Shown here piece after piece: positions 20,296 to 32,593 of a stretch of DNA of 36,450 nucleotides. The DNA comes from an uncultured Clostridia bacterium (GTDB lineage: Bacteria > Bacillota > Clostridia > TANB77 > CAG-508). The notes under the pieces were generated by a model. The model was not told where the DNA came from, did no database searches, and saw nothing but the letters and a program-made list of their open reading frames with translations. A program made the position numbers and the translations under genes. Each line of letters begins with the position of its first letter. Positions within the stretch are counted from its first letter, which is position 1. The stretch is from positions 1-36,450 of the forward strand of contig CASCUT010000021.1 of the NCBI GenBank assembly GCA_949155365.1, given 5' to 3'.

Positions 20296-20463
20296 TGTGG
20301 TGAAGTTTTACTCCTTGATTTTATTGATACTAATATTGACCGTTGTAGTGTTGATTTTAATAAAGCAAAAATAAATGTAAAAGGTGGTACACAACTAAAA
20401 GGTATTAAAACAGGTAAAAATAGACAACTTTGTGTGTCTCAAGATTATGCAGATAAGGTATAA
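20296..20463 (+). pseudogene. Remnant of a tyrosine recombinase (integrase)
   Basis: A 55-codon frame reads GEVLLLDFIDTNIDRCSVDF, then NKAKINVKGGTQLKGIKTGK, and ends DYADKV. This matches the layout of the integrase catalytic domain after its first catalytic arginine (GE-x-L-x-L-x-(W/F)-x-DID). The arginine side is lost: a TGA directly precedes the fragment. Downstream frames are closed. It indicates that an integrated element once lay here; the flanking small genes fit such a scar. The family match is by eye. Confidence 0.5.
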
Positions 20464-20801
20464 GTATATTACAACTATAAAGAAGCCTAGACGAAAATAC
20501 TCTGATGTTTTTAATAGAGCCTTATTCTACTGGTTGTAAGGGGGTGAACTTATAACCTTCGGGTTATGAGCGACATTTGACGGCTTTTTGTGAGTTTGTG
20601 AAAATTAGAGTTTTTATTGGTATTTAGGTATTTACAAGAGTTTTAGTTTATGGAACATTTGTGTCTTTTTATGGCATTTTTGGAGTGGATATTACCCAAT
20701 TTTTACCCAGCTCGTGTAATACGTTTGTTCTTAGAAATTTGGCTCTTGTAGGTGCTTTTTTGAAAATGAAAAATTTTAATTTTTGGAGGTAGTTTTTTAT
20801 T
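20464..20801. other. Gene-free stretch with a UUCG hairpin
   Basis: No convincing ORF is found. At 20549-20570 CTTATAACC pairs with GGTTATGAG around a UUCG tetraloop, a very stable RNA hairpin. The rest is likely residue of the integrated element. A GGAGG before 20802 is the ribosome site for the next gene, at rather long spacing (about 12 bases). Confidence 0.5.
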
Positions 20802-21095
20802 ATGAGTAATTTAAGAGAAGTTAATGATGATATTTTGAAAGATTGGCTAGATTTTAGAGAAGATTCTATTGCTAGTCTTACTTGTGCAAAGGATAAAATG
20901 CATTTTATTTGTTTTGAGGAGATTTCTGAGAAGATTTTGAGAAATGTTCCTGAGCAGAATAAAAAGTATGTTGAGAAACAGTTAAAACTGCTTGATGATA
21001 ATTTCTTTGATTATATTTGCTATTGGAATGAAAAGTATTATAGGAATGGTTTTTGTGATGGAGTGCAGCTGATTTGTGGATGTTTTGGAAAATAA
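20802..21095 (+). CDS. Unknown 97-residue protein of mobile-element type
   Basis: The protein begins MSNLREVNDDILKDWLDFRE, is helical and charged, and ends YYRNGFCDGVQLICGCFGK. The closing Y-x-x-G-F-x-D-G-x-x-L pattern recalls small proteins common in conjugative elements and prophages of Bacillota, but I cannot name a family. It stands alone on the plus strand, downstream of an integrase remnant, and converges on the helicase gene. The stop is followed within about ten bases by a hairpin. A GGAGG site is present at long spacing. Probably a real gene. Confidence 0.65.
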   Translation: MSNLREVNDDILKDWLDFREDSIASLTCAKDKMHFICFEEISEKILRNVPEQNKKYVEKQLKLLDDNFFDYICYWNEKYYRNGFCDGVQLICGCFGK

Positions 21096-21128
21096 AAAAG
21101 TACCGGAAGAATTTAATTTTCTTCCGGT
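21094..21128 (-). terminator. Terminator for the helicase-nuclease transcript
   Basis: A stem of ACCGGAAGAA (21102-21111) with TTCTTCCGGT (21119-21128) is followed on the minus strand by ACTTTTTTATTTT. It sits 45 bases past the helicase stop codon and may also serve the convergent small gene. Confidence 0.8.
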
Positions 21129-21172: not shown

Positions 21173-24100
21173 TTAATTACTTGCGATTACATACAGTTTA
21201 ATTCCCAATGTATCAAATAACCATGTTTTAGTAACTCCTAATAATTCTAGTTGAGCATCCGTTACTTTATTTTTAGATACTCCTGGTTGAACAATGTATA
21301 TATTCATTTTAGTTGAATATACTCTTGACATATTTATCAATGAATTAACTGTATTTTTATCACCTATTTCAAATCTGCTTGCCCCATTGTGTTTATTTTC
21401 TCTTAAATTTTCTCTTCTTAATATGTGTTTCAACAATCTTTCTGGTTTTATTTTCCAATTAATTGATTTTTGAGCTTGTCCACATACTTCATATAAATCT
21501 CCTATTCTTGCCCCAGGTAAATCTTCTTTTGAATATTTACAATGGAACAAATCTATATTAATTATCTCATTATCGGTTTTTATAGCTATAATATCTGATA
21601 TTTCTCCAGAACCATCGTCATCGAAAATCAAATCATACCCATTAGACTTAATAGTATCAATTACCTTATATTGAATTGTATCATTTTCTTTTTCAATTCC
21701 TTGAGATTCTTTTCTAATATCTATTTTATCCCAATTATATACAATAATATCTTCTTTGTTAAATTTAGGAATTCCTTTTGTAGTTGCTTCTAGATAATAT
21801 GTATTCTCTAGTGTTGAGCCATCTGCATAAGTTATTTTAGGTGGATATAATTCAAACCATTCTGTTAGCTCTTTATATCTATATCCTGTTTTTATTTCTA
21901 CTGTTTTCCCCTCTTTAGAATAAACTGCTTTTTTATTAATTATCTTCATTTCAAATTTTTCATTAATACCATTTTCTTCACTTTCTATTACAAATTTTAT
22001 TTTTCCATTTTCTATATCATTAGATAACTTTATATCAACCTCTGTTAATTCAGCTGTTTTGTCCCCACATCTTATGATGTATCTACTTTCATTGTCAATT
22101 AATATATCAGGTTGAAATTCTATACATACTGGAACCTTATTAGGTAATTTTTCTATATCTTGAGGAACTGGTATATCTTTTATAATTTCTTCTACCTTAA
22201 TATCAGGATTACAAATTTTTTCTCCTACTCTATCACACCACTCTTTCCATTCCAATAGGTTACCGATTTTTTTGCTCCATATTTTTCCTTTTTTAGAACA
22301 TCCAATACTTGTTTCATCTTGATTTTCATATCCCTTTCCAAATAAATTATTTTTATATGAGTTTAATTTATTTGGGTCAGATATTCCCTCTATTACATCT
22401 CTTCCTGCGTACATTCTATAACTTACGTATCCACTATTATTTGCATTTAATCCCAATGTAGAAAGTTTTAGTCGTTGTATATTATATAAACATTTAAAGG
22501 TATTTTCACCTTTTATGGGTTCTGCATCTTCAAAACATTTATTCAATATTTCTGTAGGTGGATTCTTTGTAGTAGTTCCTACATAAATGATTTTTTTGTA
22601 TTTATCAAAATATATAATATATAAGTCAAATACAACCTCTCTAACGTCTTCATTTCTGCACCAATCAGTTTTTCCTACATGTTTTTCTATACATGCTAGC
22701 ACATTTTCTTCATAGTTCTGTGATATAATAATATTATCATTCTTTATTTTTTCTATTGCTCTGTCAATTAAAAAATTTTGATATTTTGTTTTAAAAGTAT
22801 ACATACTTAATGCAGGATATATATTTTGGAGTGGAACTATTTCTGGAATTTCCCCCTCAAAATTTTGTAAAAATTTAATTTTTCTATCTTCTTTATCAAC
22901 TAATACATCTGCTGTCTGTCTAATAATCTTATTCCAATCTGAATCCTGTGAATATAATTCTTCCATAGCTTTATTCGTCATCTCATTTGAAATATTAGCT
23001 ATTATAGTAGCATCTCCAATCTTATTATTGCTCGTTCTTGTAAATCTTCCAACAAATTGTATAGTTGTTGCTATAGACTTGTGTGGATCATGTATTGCTG
23101 CAATTTTTAATCTTGGGAAATCGAAACCTTCTCCTAACATATTTACGCAAATAATGATTTTACAATCTCCTTTATAAAGCTTTTCTAATATTTCATTTTT
23201 CTTATTTTTATTCATTTCATTATTTATCATTAACGGTTTAAATTCCGGTGCTATTTGATTATATATTTCTGATACTTGCTCTGCCCTTATAATAGATTCA
23301 ACTCTTGCCATAGCGACATGTTCCCAACCATCTTCTATATCTCTTTTTAATACTTCAACTGTTTTTTTAGCTATTGTTTCATCTGCTTTTTGCTCATCAA
23401 ATTGCATAACTGATTCAAAATTAATAGCTTTAAAGTATTTTTCTTCTTGTGCTTGCAATAAACTATACTTATATATAATATCTCCTTTTAGCATTTTCCG
23501 ATCATTTCTAAATGGCGTAGCTGTAAATTGTACAATTTTATTTTTAAACTTATTAGCTATATCTCCCCATTTATTCAATGTAATATGATGGGCTTCATCA
23601 ATAAATAAATGTGAAAAATTATTATTCATATTTTTTTTGCCTAAATTTATAGCTAATTGCATACTTGTAATTACAACATTACATTGTTTAAAAAATTCTG
23701 CTTCTTCCCCTTTTGATTTAAATCCCTTTTTTAAGATTCCAACAACAGGATATTTACAATTTCTATTTATAATGCCTAATTTTCTTAATATTCCTAATTG
23801 CTTAAATTTATTCCCTATTTGCTCTCTTAATGCATTACTAGGAGTAATGACTATTAGTCTTTTTATCTCTTCACTTAAAAAAGTTGTAAGCATTACTTCT
23901 GTTTTTCCCGTTCCTGTTGGCATTACTACTATTCCCTCTTTATATTTTGGGTTAGTAATGTTAGATAGTATTGCATGAATAGCTCCTACTTGTGGTGTTC
24001 TTAATCCTACTCTAATTATATCATCATTCTCTATTATTTCCTTTTTTATTTTATAATTTGCTTCATACAATTCTTTTATTCGTTCTATATCTTCATCTTG

Positions 24101-24358
24101 CACATATTTAAACCATTTTAATTCAGTTTCTTCATTTAGCTCTGAATCCTTATATTTTAATACATATTTATAATTTTTAAATCTTCTATTTTGATTAGTT
24201 ATTAGTATATCTTCATCTAAAATCGTTTTTAGTAAATATCCATCTTCACATTCATATAATTTAACATCTTCATTTAATCCTGCAAAGCCTAATTGAAAAA
24301 TATTATTTCCACTCATATAACTATTCTTAATAATATATTGTGGGATTTTAATTATCAT
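21173..24358 (-). CDS. SF2 helicase with a probable C-terminal PD-(D/E)xK-like nuclease
   Basis: This 1061-residue protein has a complete SF2 motor: MPTGTGKT at 146-153, DEAH at 254-257, FTATPFR at 278-284, GEGFDFP near 409-415 and QFVGRFTR at 434-441. The middle (about 540-730) has no motif I know. Near 908-941 is YDLIFDDDGSGEISDIIAI, then IDLFHCKYS. The spacing of acidic residues before a D-x-x-x-C-K strand resembles a restriction-nuclease core, followed by PGARIGDLYEVCGQAQKS. Its ATG overlaps the gene at 24348 by 11 bases, so the two are co-translated. A hairpin terminator follows. Neither hsdR-like methylase partners nor a known defence-system layout match. A phage-defence role is inferred from the neighbourhood. 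Nuclease assignment is moderate. Confidence 0.85.
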   Translation of the reverse strand: MIIKIPQYIIKNSYMSGNNIFQLGFAGLNEDVKLYECEDGYLLKTILDEDILITNQNRRFKNYKYVLKYKDSELNEETELKWFKYVQDEDIERIKELYEANYKIKKEIIENDDIIRVGLRTPQVGAIHAILSNITNPKYKEGIVVMPTGTGKTEVMLTTFLSEEIKRLIVITPSNALREQIGNKFKQLGILRKLGIINRNCKYPVVGILKKGFKSKGEEAEFFKQCNVVITSMQLAINLGKKNMNNNFSHLFIDEAHHITLNKWGDIANKFKNKIVQFTATPFRNDRKMLKGDIIYKYSLLQAQEEKYFKAINFESVMQFDEQKADETIAKKTVEVLKRDIEDGWEHVAMARVESIIRAEQVSEIYNQIAPEFKPLMINNEMNKNKKNEILEKLYKGDCKIIICVNMLGEGFDFPRLKIAAIHDPHKSIATTIQFVGRFTRTSNNKIGDATIIANISNEMTNKAMEELYSQDSDWNKIIRQTADVLVDKEDRKIKFLQNFEGEIPEIVPLQNIYPALSMYTFKTKYQNFLIDRAIEKIKNDNIIISQNYEENVLACIEKHVGKTDWCRNEDVREVVFDLYIIYFDKYKKIIYVGTTTKNPPTEILNKCFEDAEPIKGENTFKCLYNIQRLKLSTLGLNANNSGYVSYRMYAGRDVIEGISDPNKLNSYKNNLFGKGYENQDETSIGCSKKGKIWSKKIGNLLEWKEWCDRVGEKICNPDIKVEEIIKDIPVPQDIEKLPNKVPVCIEFQPDILIDNESRYIIRCGDKTAELTEVDIKLSNDIENGKIKFVIESEENGINEKFEMKIINKKAVYSKEGKTVEIKTGYRYKELTEWFELYPPKITYADGSTLENTYYLEATTKGIPKFNKEDIIVYNWDKIDIRKESQGIEKENDTIQYKVIDTIKSNGYDLIFDDDGSGEISDIIAIKTDNEIINIDLFHCKYSKEDLPGARIGDLYEVCGQAQKSINWKIKPERLLKHILRRENLRENKHNGASRFEIGDKNTVNSLINMSRVYSTKMNIYIVQPGVSKNKVTDAQLELLGVTKTWLFDTLGIKLYVIASN

Positions 24359-24770
24359 TTCTATTTTCTCCTCCTTTCACTTTTGTCTGGTTAAATGCTT
24401 CTTTTATCGCCTTATCTAGTTGTTCTTGTACACTATCTTTATTAAAAATACTTCCAAATATTTGACTTGTTGCACTATTTACTGACTCATTATTAGCAAT
24501 TTCTGTAGTTTTTTTAATTTCATTTTCGTTTTCTAATTTTAATATTTCTAACTTATATTTTTGTTCAACTTCTTTTAATTCAAGTTCTAACTTATGCTTT
24601 TCCTTCATTGCTTCAACATCTATTTTATGTTGATTTATTAACTTCTCCATATCAGCTGTATTTTGTATTTTTAATACTTCGATATCCTTTTTATTTCCAC
24701 TCCTAGCCACTAGATATGTTATAATACCACTTATTAGCGCAGTTATGATCGAAAAAATATGTGTTTCCAT
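24348..24770 (-). CDS. Membrane-anchored coiled-coil protein coupled to the helicase
   Basis: This 140-residue protein starts METHIFSIITALISGIITYL, a single N-terminal membrane segment, then a positive turn (ARSGNKK). A long charged coiled coil covers residues 30-95 (KHKLELELKEVEQKYKLEIL). The last 45 residues are polar (SQIFGSIFNKDSVQEQLDKA). The topology suggests a short outside tail and a cytoplasmic coiled coil. It overlaps the helicase gene by 11 bases, so the two are probably made together. The coiled coil could tether or sense for the helicase-nuclease. No family is recognised. A GAGGTG site precedes the ATG. An upstream TATAAT lies near 24817-24822 but lacks a clear -35. Confidence 0.75.
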   Translation of the reverse strand: METHIFSIITALISGIITYLVARSGNKKDIEVLKIQNTADMEKLINQHKIDVEAMKEKHKLELELKEVEQKYKLEILKLENENEIKKTTEIANNESVNSATSQIFGSIFNKDSVQEQLDKAIKEAFNQTKVKGGENRNDN

Positions 24771-24906: not shown

Positions 24907-25245
24907 CTATATAATTTCTTTGGCTTCTCTTTCACTTTTAAAATACAATATCTTTTTTAAGGTTTCTTTCTTTTCCTCTAATGATATTTTATCGTTCTCG
25001 AAGTATCGTTTTGCTATTTGTAAGACTTGTTCTGAATTTAACGCTTTTTTATTAAATAAATTGTCCATGCTGACATCAAAATAGTCACTAATTATTACAG
25101 CATCATATAGACTCATTTCTCTCCTACCTGTTTCCCAACTTGACACCTTAGATCTACTTATATTTAAATCTTCAGCCATCTTTTCTTGCGATACCCCTTT
25201 TAGTATCCTCTGTACTTTCAAATCAACTCCTAATCTTTCATTCAT
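24907..25245 (-). CDS. XRE-family transcription regulator
   Basis: This 112-residue protein has an N-terminal helix-turn-helix of the Cro/CI type (residues 6-60): LKVQRILKGVSQEKMAEDLN, then ISRSKVSSWETGRREMSLYD. A ~40-residue charged tail follows. It probably binds DNA as a dimer and controls its own operon or the adjacent defence genes. It lies 136 bases before the coiled-coil/helicase pair on the same strand and may regulate it. The ATG has a GGAGG site. Its promoter has the shared TTCGACA-N16-TATGAT layout. Confidence 0.9.
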   Translation of the reverse strand: MNERLGVDLKVQRILKGVSQEKMAEDLNISRSKVSSWETGRREMSLYDAVIISDYFDVSMDNLFNKKALNSEQVLQIAKRYFENDKISLEEKKETLKKILYFKSEREAKEII

Positions 25246-25380: not shown

Positions 25381-26022
25381 TTATTCTAAATATTCTTTCA
25401 ATCCATCAACTATTTTATAAACTTTTGTCATTGGATTTCTTTGTGATGCATGTCCATCTTTATTTAATTCTTTCATGTACTTGCAATTCTTTATTGCAGT
25501 ATGTAACTTTCCTTCGCTTGTAACCTTATCAAATATATTTGTATCGTTTTTAGTATAATTGCCTAAACCATTTTTCTGAAATTCTTTGCTTAGTTCTTGT
25601 AACACATCATCCTTTGAAACATATCTGTTTATCTTTTTAAAATGTGCCAATAGCCAAAGTTCAAAATTTGGATTAGACCAAGCCACATTATAGTTACAAT
25701 TGTATATTGCTGAATTAAATTGTTCATCATTATAATCATCTTTATCAAATACTACCCAAACTTATCCATATACCTTATTCGCATGGTTAACTGTTTTTTG
25801 AGTATATTTTACTAAAGATGTAGTATTCATTCCTGTCCCTTTTACATCAATATTTGGAATTAAAACATCTACCTTATTACCATACTTTTCATTAATTTTT
25901 CTTTTTAATCCATTAAAATAATTAGGCTCTGTTTTCTTTCCTTCACATACAATTAAGTAATTGGCTGGTGCTTGCCTTTTACTTTTTAATCTATCTTTTC
26001 TTGAAATATTGTTATTTTTCAT
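25381..26022 (-). pseudogene. rloB: RloB-family TOPRIM protein interrupted by TAA
   Basis: A 212-residue RloB frame is split by a TAA at 25762-25764. The first part has RLKSKRQAPANYLIVCEGKK, giving the TOPRIM Glu (E27). After the stop the frame continues VWVVFDKDDYND, holding the TOPRIM D-x-D pair (D93, D95), and then NVAWSNPNFELWLLAHFKKI, a typical RloB block. GAA to TAA or CAA to TAA would account for the break. RloB with its ATPase partner forms the AbiL-type defence pair. It overlaps rloA by 11 bases. As read, the catalytic pair is lost from the N-terminal product, so the system should be off unless the stop is an error. Confidence 0.85.
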
Positions 26023-27247
26023 AATCTATATCAAATTCTTCCAATACTGGAATAGCACCATATCTTCCAGTTAAATAATCTTTATTGTATGTTGCATCAT
26101 TTCTTACTTTTTTACCTGCATTTTTATCATCTTCTAGTATATAATCAGACAATGCATATATTTCCGAAATACCATCTTTATCTTTTTCTGCAAACCATAT
26201 TTCATCTCTTCTTAAAGTTTCTTTATTTAAATTTACTGTATCATGTGTCGAATATATTAACTGCCCATTTCCTTTATTGGTATCACTATTATGGAATAGA
26301 TTAATGATATATCTTGTTAATAAAGGATGTAGTTTTGCATCTAATTCATCGATAAATAATACCATTCCATTTTTTAATGCATCCATAAAGAAATCAAATA
26401 GATGGAACATTTTTCTAGTACCATTTGATTCTAAATAAAATGGCAATGCTTTTAATTCTCCATTTTCTCCTTTATGAATAACTTCAATGTCTATTATTCC
26501 ATTATTGCTTTTTACTGCTTCAATTGAGTCTGGTGTTGTTTTTATCCCTTCAATTCCAGAATCAAAAGTTTTTATAAATTTTAATAATTCCTTTTTATAA
26601 TTTTCATCACTTAATATTTTTAATGAAACTCTATTATTAATAAATCTTTCAAAATTAGGATTACCTAAATCTAAATATGTGCTATTTACAAACCAATCAT
26701 ATACATTATTAAAATTTTCATTATCTTTATCAATTTTGCTATATATATTTAAAAATAAAGTTCTTTCATCTATATTAGCTAATTTAGAAATTTTATTATC
26801 TTTCATCATTTTTATGTTGTTGTTTTCTCTTTCAAATATAAAATAAAATTTATTAACTCTTTTTTCATATAGCCATTCTGAAATTATATTATCTTTTACT
26901 AATTCAAAACCATATTTATATATTTTATTGTTTTTTGCTAATATTTCTACTTCTAAAGCAATTGGATCATTATTTATCATAAAACTATAGACATTTTCTT
27001 CATCTATTGGAGAATTCTTTTTAGAGTCATCACTTACTAGTATTCTTTTTTTCATATAATCAAAAGCTTGTAACACATTAGTTTTTCCACTAGCATTGGC
27101 ACCATAAATTGCAGATACTTTTAAATATTCACCATTTTCTGTTTTTGCCACATTATATTCATGTTCTTTCAATGATGTTGCTTCCATATCTAAACAATTT
27201 TCGTTTTTGAAAGATTTGAAATTTTTAAAATTAAATCTTATTAACAT
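26012..27247 (-). CDS. rloA: RloA-like AAA ATPase (AbiL-type partner of RloB)
   Basis: This 411-residue ABC/SMC-like ATPase starts LIRFNFKNFKSFKNE, with Walker A AIYGANASGKT at 46-56, a signature-like SNGTRKM at 274-280, Walker B VLFIDELDAKLHP at about 296-308, and STHD near 331. This is the RloA/AbiEi-independent ATPase seen beside RloB and near type I restriction loci. It would sense infection and regulate the TOPRIM nuclease. The ATG has an AGGAGG site. It has its own promoter (27273-27301) overlapping the terminator of the preceding hsd operon. The reading frame is intact although its partner is broken. Confidence 0.9.
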   Translation of the reverse strand: MLIRFNFKNFKSFKNENCLDMEATSLKEHEYNVAKTENGEYLKVSAIYGANASGKTNVLQAFDYMKKRILVSDDSKKNSPIDEENVYSFMINNDPIALEVEILAKNNKIYKYGFELVKDNIISEWLYEKRVNKFYFIFERENNNIKMMKDNKISKLANIDERTLFLNIYSKIDKDNENFNNVYDWFVNSTYLDLGNPNFERFINNRVSLKILSDENYKKELLKFIKTFDSGIEGIKTTPDSIEAVKSNNGIIDIEVIHKGENGELKALPFYLESNGTRKMFHLFDFFMDALKNGMVLFIDELDAKLHPLLTRYIINLFHNSDTNKGNGQLIYSTHDTVNLNKETLRRDEIWFAEKDKDGISEIYALSDYILEDDKNAGKKVRNDATYNKDYLTGRYGAIPVLEEFDIDYEK

Positions 27248-31600: not shown

Positions 31601-32593
31601 CTAAATTATAATAACACTTGATATAATATCTCCTAAACAAATATAAGTATGAATTATTATTTGTTGTATCTCTCTATATGTTATATCATTATGAACTCCA
31701 TTGCATATTTTATCATTCAACTTATTAATCCAGGAAATTGTATCTTCTATATGTTTATTCGATAATTTATCAATATTATCCAAACAAACGGTTAATCTAT
31801 TAATATATTTATCCCCAGTAATATTTACATCTTTTCCTGATTTTACTTTTATCATCTCTTTATCATAACTTGGGTACATTTTTTCAAATAGATTATCTGC
31901 CACACTTTTAAATAATTTTCTGCAAGTATCTGCCGCTTGAGACCAACTTTCTTTATTGTCTTCTGAAAGTCTATCATATATAGCAGATAATTTTTCATCA
32001 CTATCTCCAATAATATTAGATAATTTATTATCCACAGTTTCTCTATACTCTCCAAATATATCTTCAGCAGATTTTGAAAAACCAATTTCCATATTAATAT
32101 TTAGTGCATATTTATAATATTCTCCTTTAAGAATTCCTAGTTTTCTTTTATTTTCAGATATTATATTTGTAATCGCACTACCACTAATCGCTACAGATTC
32201 TGTTAGATTATGCATAGCAACACTAGCATATTCTCCAGCAACTGATGCACCTTGCGTAGTCATATTATTAATACGTTTCATATTTGATTCTATTATGCCA
32301 TTTATTTCTTCTGGTAAATCTACAAAAATATATTCCTTTTTATCTTTATTGTTTATATAACTTCTTCCATGTGCCTTTGCAATTGAAAAAGCCTCTCTAT
32401 CAATCTTTCCATCATCGTTTCTTTTATATCCTTTTATTTCATATTGAAGCCATGTCATTCCCTCATTATCATTCATTAAGCTAGCCAATCTAAGACATTT
32501 TAGTGCTATAGATTCTAAAGAATCTTCTTCTAGTTCTATTTTTTCTAATATTTCTTCTGACAATTCTAACGCCTTTTGTAATTTTTGATTCAT
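31601..32593 (-). CDS. AbiTii-like abortive-infection protein inside the hsd operon
   Basis: This 330-residue protein has an N-terminal region like AbiTii: LESIALKCLRLASLMNDNEG and MTWLQYEIKGYKR, a helical pair ending in W-L-x-(Y)-E-(I/L)-x-G-Y. A middle segment with small residues (GASVAGEYASVAMHNLTESV) follows. The C-terminal half is helical (DNLFEKMYPSYDKEMIK). AbiTii proteins cause growth arrest on phage infection; their mechanism is not fixed. Placement between hsdS and hsdR in the same transcript suggests a backup to restriction. The ATG has an AGAGGT site. It is 44 bases after hsdS and 10 before hsdR. Confidence 0.75.
   Translation of the reverse strand: MNQKLQKALELSEEILEKIELEEDSLESIALKCLRLASLMNDNEGMTWLQYEIKGYKRNDDGKIDREAFSIAKAHGRSYINNKDKKEYIFVDLPEEINGIIESNMKRINNMTTQGASVAGEYASVAMHNLTESVAISGSAITNIISENKRKLGILKGEYYKYALNINMEIGFSKSAEDIFGEYRETVDNKLSNIIGDSDEKLSAIYDRLSEDNKESWSQAADTCRKLFKSVADNLFEKMYPSYDKEMIKVKSGKDVNITGDKYINRLTVCLDNIDKLSNKHIEDTISWINKLNDKICNGVHNDITYREIQQIIIHTYICLGDIISSVIII

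Follow-up and report, generated by a model that had tools for sequence, protein, structure and literature searches.

The window, a stretch of 36,450 nucleotides from an uncultured Clostridia bacterium (contig CASCUT010000021.1), carries two overlapping genes, one for a small membrane protein of 140 residues and one for a helicase of 1061 residues that probably ends in a nuclease domain (here called the helicase-nuclease). We consider it reasonably likely, at a probability of roughly 0.6, that the larger protein is a self-contained helicase-nuclease and that the small gene is portable and stands ahead of interchangeable immune enzymes. The 140-residue protein is not a dedicated subunit of the helicase. 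The small gene reads instead as a front module that varied immune operons have reused, the enzymes being swapped at the gene boundary; this role is visible only by comparison and not from the window alone. Accessory parts common to unrelated immune systems are mostly regulators. If the reading is true, a small membrane protein preceding at least six kinds of known or likely immune enzyme would suggest a membrane-level step shared by very different systems. The unit comprises the following features.

21173..24358, minus strand: 1061-residue superfamily 2 (SF2) helicase with a C-terminal PD-(D/E)xK-like domain (Pfam ResIII, E 1.1e-22; Helicase_C, E 3.2e-12)
21176..21757, minus strand: C-terminal nuclease-like domain, residues 868-1061 (AlphaFold2, VIA-align, partial match to PDC-S71)
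24348..24770, minus strand: 140-residue small protein, a phrog_2542 relative with one N-terminal membrane helix and a charged helical tail; the portable gene, whose final codons include a Shine-Dalgarno-like stretch for the helicase gene
24907..25245, minus strand: XRE-type regulator (Pfam HTH_3, E 9.9e-11)

An earlier, sequence-only reading of the window had described two open reading frames (ORFs) of 140 and 1061 residues with an 11-base overlap, and our coordinates agree, with bases 24348-24358 shared by both. The XRE regulator that it placed ahead of the pair is identified by the HTH_3 match.

Partners of the small gene

We determined the partner of the small gene, defined as the same-strand gene that follows it directly, at 16 distinct loci (designated by L numbers), 14 of which come from a search of 385 genomes of the order, one (L122) from the class and one (L172) from the genus. 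The frameshifted copy of L005 is included among the 16, the partial copies L137, L138 and L171 are excluded, and 15 of the 16 genomes belong to one clostridial order. The genes that follow are listed by locus.

Window, L004, L005, L140: helicase-nuclease (most of the helicase deleted in L140)
L107, L139: Ppl-like protein with a weak PHP match
L141: protein with weak PHP and AAA_21 matches
L142: OLD/AriA-like ATPase
L108: CD-NTase, followed by E1-like, JAB and SAVED-2TM genes, a set of the cyclic-oligonucleotide-based anti-phage signalling system (CBASS)
L109: HsdR, the small gene sitting between HsdS and HsdR
L172: 124-residue protein, then HsdR, in a type I operon, the small gene again between HsdS and HsdR
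L110: AlbA_2 protein
L145: YaaC-like protein
L106: 213-residue protein with hydrophobic stretches, between HsdR and PD-T7-3
L144: unrecognised protein, the small gene standing just after a PDC-M34 pair
L122: unrecognised protein

In relatives, type I restriction-modification (R-M), CBASS, Ppl and Old enzymes, unrelated to one another, stand where the window has its helicase-nuclease, directly after the small gene; published systems of these four types are not known to include such a gene. The next gene starts at most 25 bp from the small gene in 14 of the 16 loci; the overlap in L140 is 11 bases, and in L122 the start codon of the small gene is uncertain and the coordinates are approximate.

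Enzyme exchange at the gene border

Across the XRE and small genes, the DNA of the window matches that of L139 at 94.8% and that of L107 at 90.6%, and the similarity ends 22 bp before the helicase start. In comparisons of the window with L108, L142 and L141, the block of similarity around the small gene consists of its ORF and ribosome-binding site only. The small proteins of the window and L139 are identical at residues 1-127, with three nucleotide differences in 381, and differ in the tail only; the L139 gene precedes a Ppl-like gene and that of the window the helicase-nuclease. Because these residues are identical and the DNA similarity stops at the 3′ end of the small gene, the enzymes behind it have been swapped recently, by recombination. 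No strong repeat able to drive such swapping was found at the module borders. L142 keeps the AbiL-like gene pair that neighbours the unit in the window (84%) and the small gene (80%), with the XRE gene missing and a different enzyme, and the AbiL pair is absent in L107 and L139. L004, L107 and L139 likewise have an XRE gene ahead of their small gene, and none of the other copies read upstream does.

Nine of the 15 copies compared carry GGAG in the last codons of the small gene, which would serve as the Shine-Dalgarno sequence of the next gene, and since the genes overlap or abut, the arrangement suggests translational coupling. On the main reading, the small gene is translated before unrelated immune enzymes that can replace one another behind it, chiefly within a single clostridial order.

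A partner-specific tether appears unlikely because an identical small protein precedes unrelated enzymes. We also regard as rather doubtful a promiscuous membrane adaptor, which would dock unrelated immune enzymes through a shared surface and so let them work at the site of phage DNA entry. The membrane helix with its probably cytoplasmic charged helix, the repeated position at the head of enzymes acting on DNA or nucleotides and the coupling suggested by overlapping or abutting genes all favour an adaptor, whereas the identity of residues 1-127 before two unrelated enzymes and the lack of the small gene at distant helicase homologues argue against it. A further possibility, which we judge improbable, is that the small protein is an antidote or damper, made first to restrain the toxic enzyme that follows. 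Antitoxin-first order is common in toxin-antitoxin-like pairs, and the small protein is likewise made first and apparently translationally coupled; yet one protein would need to restrain unrelated enzymes, the small gene of L140 is intact though most of the helicase is deleted, and L005 has kept its helicase despite a frameshift close to the beginning of the small gene in this assembly.

Helicase homologues elsewhere

Is the helicase in turn bound to the small gene? The sequence-only reading had proposed a dedicated two-gene defence system of a membrane coiled-coil protein and a helicase-nuclease, and had named absence of the small gene next to most homologues as evidence against it. We surveyed 18 loci whose homologues share 30-38% identity with the helicase (plasmid records in 13 cases, one record filed as phage, one genome and three viral contigs), considering same-strand ORFs of at least 40 residues that end at most 400 bp before the helicase start. 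None of the 18 has the small gene within these 400 bp; two short upstream ORFs, of 59 residues in L009 and 113 residues in L011, are moderately hydrophobic and by eye unlike the small protein. Besides the window, the small gene stands beside the helicase in two of 20 homologue loci, L004 (96%) and L005 (83%, with the small-gene frameshift). The retention of the pair in these two loci is what favours a dedicated system; given the 0 of 18 distant loci and the many other partners of the small gene, we consider it very improbable, and the claim is abandoned. The helicase is normally without the small gene, as the distant loci show.

By sequence similarity, the helicase-nuclease is a widespread family, and the full-length protein has no full-length match in Pfam, NCBIfam, PADLOC or PHROG. 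A tblastn search of plasmids returned 172 records, with query coverage of 80% or more in 51 of them and identities all below 60%. At E <= 1e-30, two of 143 relatives and two of 391 genomes of the class carry it, both counts including the genome of the window. No paper naming the family was found in a literature collection that lacks most subscription papers.

Several homologues have settings of their own. In L140 (5978-6370, minus strand), an internal deletion leaves the helicase start and about two-thirds of the nuclease domain, with the small gene intact. On three alphaproteobacterial plasmids (L008 2051-8868, L151 464-5862, L153 1-5868), a gap of 14 nt separates the helicase-nuclease start from a large ORF upstream, which is annotated as UvrD-helicase in L008 and L153 and preceded in L008 by a PD-(D/E)XK family gene; together with these upstream genes it is possibly part of a different multi-gene system. 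In the viral contig L148 (1236-6555), taking the first possible start of the helicase-nuclease ORF makes it overlap an AAA_13 ATPase gene upstream (E 8.8e-131) at that gene's end. Recombinase genes adjoin the homologues in L007 (5992-15138, annotated gamma-mobile-trio) and L112 (6148-14197, by eye), which suggests carriage by integrative elements.

Features and distribution of the small protein

The small protein has a hydrophobic helix at residues 4-22 (Kyte-Doolittle mean 1.96), and the R/K residues that follow suggest a cytoplasmic C-terminus. The single N-terminal membrane helix of the sequence-only reading therefore stands, and its long coiled coil is plausible but partly supported only, as heptad periodicity is weak in a simple test; the tail is possibly a highly charged single helix instead. 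Over residues 3-123 of 140 the protein matches phrog_2542 (E 8.5e-15), a family of phage proteins of unknown function. Ratios of non-synonymous to synonymous substitution rates (dN/dS) of 0.05-0.22 among eight copies (28 pairs), rough values with many dS above 1, indicate that the protein is kept by selection.

At E <= 0.001, the PHROG 2542 profile matched 13 genomes among 191 from the order, seven with strong scores (E <= 1.1e-12); of the 14 control genomes, Lactococcus lactis alone matched. When seven copies were combined into a profile, the gene was detected in 14 genomes among 385 from the order (E <= 1e-6) and in five of 391 genomes of the class, two of these weakly; within one genus, three of 96 genomes carry the gene, one copy being cut by a contig end. 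Because a twelve-row profile recovered only the window's own genome from a phylum sample of 398, the module looks narrow in distribution. Carriers are mostly draft assemblies in tens of contigs. Weak matches (E ~1e-4 to 1e-3; L020-L025, L117, L118) were dropped, and the weak-match regions read (L113, L123, L124) held no convincing copy.

Plasmids gave no match with the small protein of the window or with the L144 copy as query, and phages none with that of the window. The L110 copy matched 14 phage records (best E 2e-4), and the 12 of these at 26-30% identity cover at least 80% of the query; the L109 copy matched one. Among viral contigs, 292 stretches fit the small-protein pattern and none was confirmed. 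In two pneumococcal prophages (L119 4462-4887, L120 4486-4911), distant relatives stand alone in the early region, opposite to the flanking genes. The prophage relatives read are thus alone on their strand, whereas the clostridial gene precedes immune enzymes.

These lone relatives bear on a third alternative, that the small protein is an independent membrane defence of the superinfection-exclusion type, sharing operons only as islands accumulate defence genes. The absence of a same-strand partner in both prophages and the tight gene packing common in carrier genomes favour it, but the repeated position before or inside immune operons, including the slot between HsdS and HsdR in L109 and L172, does not; we regard it as possible, at clearly less than even odds.

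Domain architecture of the helicase-nuclease

The 1061-residue protein is supported as a single-chain SF2 helicase of XPB/RadD-like type with a PD-(D/E)xK-like C-terminal domain. The sequence-only reading had likewise assigned an SF2 helicase with a nuclease-like C-terminus, in line with the Pfam domains, the nuclease-led fold alignment and the invariant motifs described here. Pfam lists ResIII, DEAD and Helicase_C and no DinG/XPD family, and the best solved sequence relatives include XPBII and RadD. In PADLOC, the typeIV_DinG match is weak (5.3e-8) and a generic helicase model (PbeA) also matches. The full-length model is poor, with a predicted local distance difference test (pLDDT) score of 49.8, and its fold search covered residues ~152-434.

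AlphaFold2 modelled residues 868-1061 at a pLDDT of 84.9 and a predicted template modelling score of 0.85, with (in domain numbering) a helix at 28-39, strands at 43-46, 56-62 and 65-73, a helix at 85-97 and a strand at 148-161. Nucleases head the VIA-align list of this model, and the best-aligned structures are ones that we take to belong to the PD-(D/E)xK superfamily. The motifs DDDGSGEISD (913-922) and FHCKYS (938-943) carry acidic and HCK residues that are invariant among aligned homologues; D922 (domain D55) lies just before strand 56-62, and H939-C940-K941 ends strand 65-73 (K941 being K74). Because the model aligns best with PD-(D/E)xK nucleases and the motifs are invariant, the C-terminal domain is probably a nuclease. 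On the other side of the balance, the best VIA-align Z of 9.3 barely exceeds the 7-8 that this tool typically returns without a clear match, Foldseek alone found nothing below E 0.04 for the domain model in the PDB, and the second-acid position of the (D/E)xK motif is a histidine, H939 (domain H72). The domain sequence had no matches in the PDB and none in Pfam, each at E up to 10, and the best Foldseek hit among viral models was an uncharacterised protein (E 0.0023).

Weighing the reading

Apart from the nuclease assignment, several points weigh against a self-contained helicase-nuclease with a portable gene ahead of immune enzymes. Two of the 16 copies (L122, L144) have no close recognisable partner, and the PHP labels depend on Pfam scores below threshold. 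Genes are often tightly packed in carrier genomes: a neighbour on the same strand lies no more than 25 bp away for 15 of 31 control genes, compared with 14 of the 16 small-gene copies (p 0.012). Immediate partners matched PADLOC models at E <= 1e-10 in 7 of 14 cases scanned, those of L004 and L005 lying outside the 14, compared with 1 of 10 controls, a difference that is not significant (p 0.08). The seven include the window helicase through the generic PbeA model and L110 through a pAgo model; for the control, 10 arbitrary stretches were taken from five carrier genomes and the longest ORF of each was scanned, and its sole positive is by eye a DNA polymerase I that matches a polymerase model. 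A match within one gene on either side occurs at 10 of the 14 loci (p 0.005 against the control), a lenient count given that the control counted one ORF. Defence genes cluster anyway, and phage protection by the proteins described here is a prediction. The link of the small gene to defence therefore rests mainly on the identities of its partners and the repeated swaps.

For the small protein, a membrane function independent of the partner, or else a generic dock, is a better fit than a partner-specific tether, and the former is favoured because distant relatives stand alone in two pneumococcal prophages. Its job would most likely be independent of the partner's sequence, as a separate membrane layer for sensing or exclusion or as a generic hold at the inner face of the membrane. 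By analogy with Hna and Hachiman, the helicase-nuclease would most likely load on junctions of single strand and duplex in invading or damaged DNA and cut them. More tentatively, one small protein may act as a common membrane chassis that serves unrelated immune enzymes, exchanged like cartridges and sharing translation start-up and perhaps a membrane site. No relevant paper on the small protein or on a shared accessory was found in the same literature collection.

Comparison with known systems

Hna is a single-gene defence of 845 residues that combines a DinG-like helicase with a C-terminal PD-(D/E)xK nuclease and acts as a 3′-5′ single-stranded DNA exonuclease (PMC13381803). The window protein resembles it in joining an SF2 helicase and a PD-(D/E)xK-like nuclease in one chain, but it has 1061 residues and ResIII/Helicase_C domains; on helicase type and length, and by description only, we rejected Hna as its name. 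The structure entries of S. meliloti Hna (10UJ, 9YKJ) are not among the matches listed, from a structure collection that may lack them. Hachiman consists of two proteins (HamAB), a Ski2-like helicase and a DUF1837 nuclease, the latter being first held in check and later switched on by the helicase (PMC12278908). The overall design of helicase plus nuclease is alike, whereas the nuclease-like domain is fused to the helicase here and HamA is a separate protein there. A Hachiman fusion was rejected by sequence, as the window helicase has no DUF1837 or HamB match; PADLOC lists neither HamA nor HamB families for it at E up to 1. The distant homologue in L112 has a faint HamB match (E 0.0033).

A Type-1 bacteriophage exclusion (BREX)-related system includes a helicase with a C-terminal PD-(D/E)xK nuclease alongside a DUF499 ATPase and an N6-methyltransferase (PMC12839542); the fused design is shared, a likeness of description with the sequences uncompared. 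No such ATPase and methyltransferase set was recognised beside helicase homologues, the annotated loci showing no DUF499 label and no dedicated scan having been made. The isolated C-terminal domain matches positions 413-547 of the PADLOC candidate PDC-S71 (E 1.2e-8), but the first part of this 589-position model is unmatched and the full-length helicase has no reported match to it.

Neighbourhood of the locus

Outside the two genes and their regulator, the window holds the following features.

20802..21095, plus strand: 97-residue ORF, convergent to the helicase, with far-side relatives at other loci
21102..21128, both strands: terminator-like stem of 10 pairs, between the helicase and the 97-residue ORF
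25381..27247, minus strand: AbiL-like pair, outside the helicase unit, in the same mosaic island
26012-27247, minus strand: AbiLi (E 2e-88)
25381-26022, minus strand: AbiLii/RloB-like gene with an in-frame stop, the interrupted partner of AbiLi
31601-32593, minus strand: AbiTii-like gene (PADLOC E 1.4e-16) flanked by hsdS and hsdR of the type I R-M set

Upstream of the XRE gene lie the AbiL-like pair and then the type I R-M set with the AbiTii-like gene, so that the AbiL-like and type I neighbours named in the sequence-only reading are recovered, as is its terminator at the end of the unit, in the form of the stem at 21102-21128. This stem is terminator-like on both strands, with two found compared with a mean of 0.8 in shuffled sequence, and may therefore also serve the convergent 97-residue ORF. 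The putative integrase scar of the sequence-only reading would lie near 20300-20480. Uninterrupted copies of the AbiLii/RloB-like gene are present in the relatives L004 and L142. The slot of the AbiTii-like gene, between hsdS and hsdR, is that of the small gene in L109 and L172.

The 97-residue ORF has no Pfam match above cut-off. Relatives recognised by eye are found beyond the enzyme and convergent to it in L004, L107, L140, L141 and L142, about 4 kb past the enzyme in L005 and on the opposite side in L108; DNA similarity backs five of these seven loci, and the ORF is possibly a marker of the element.

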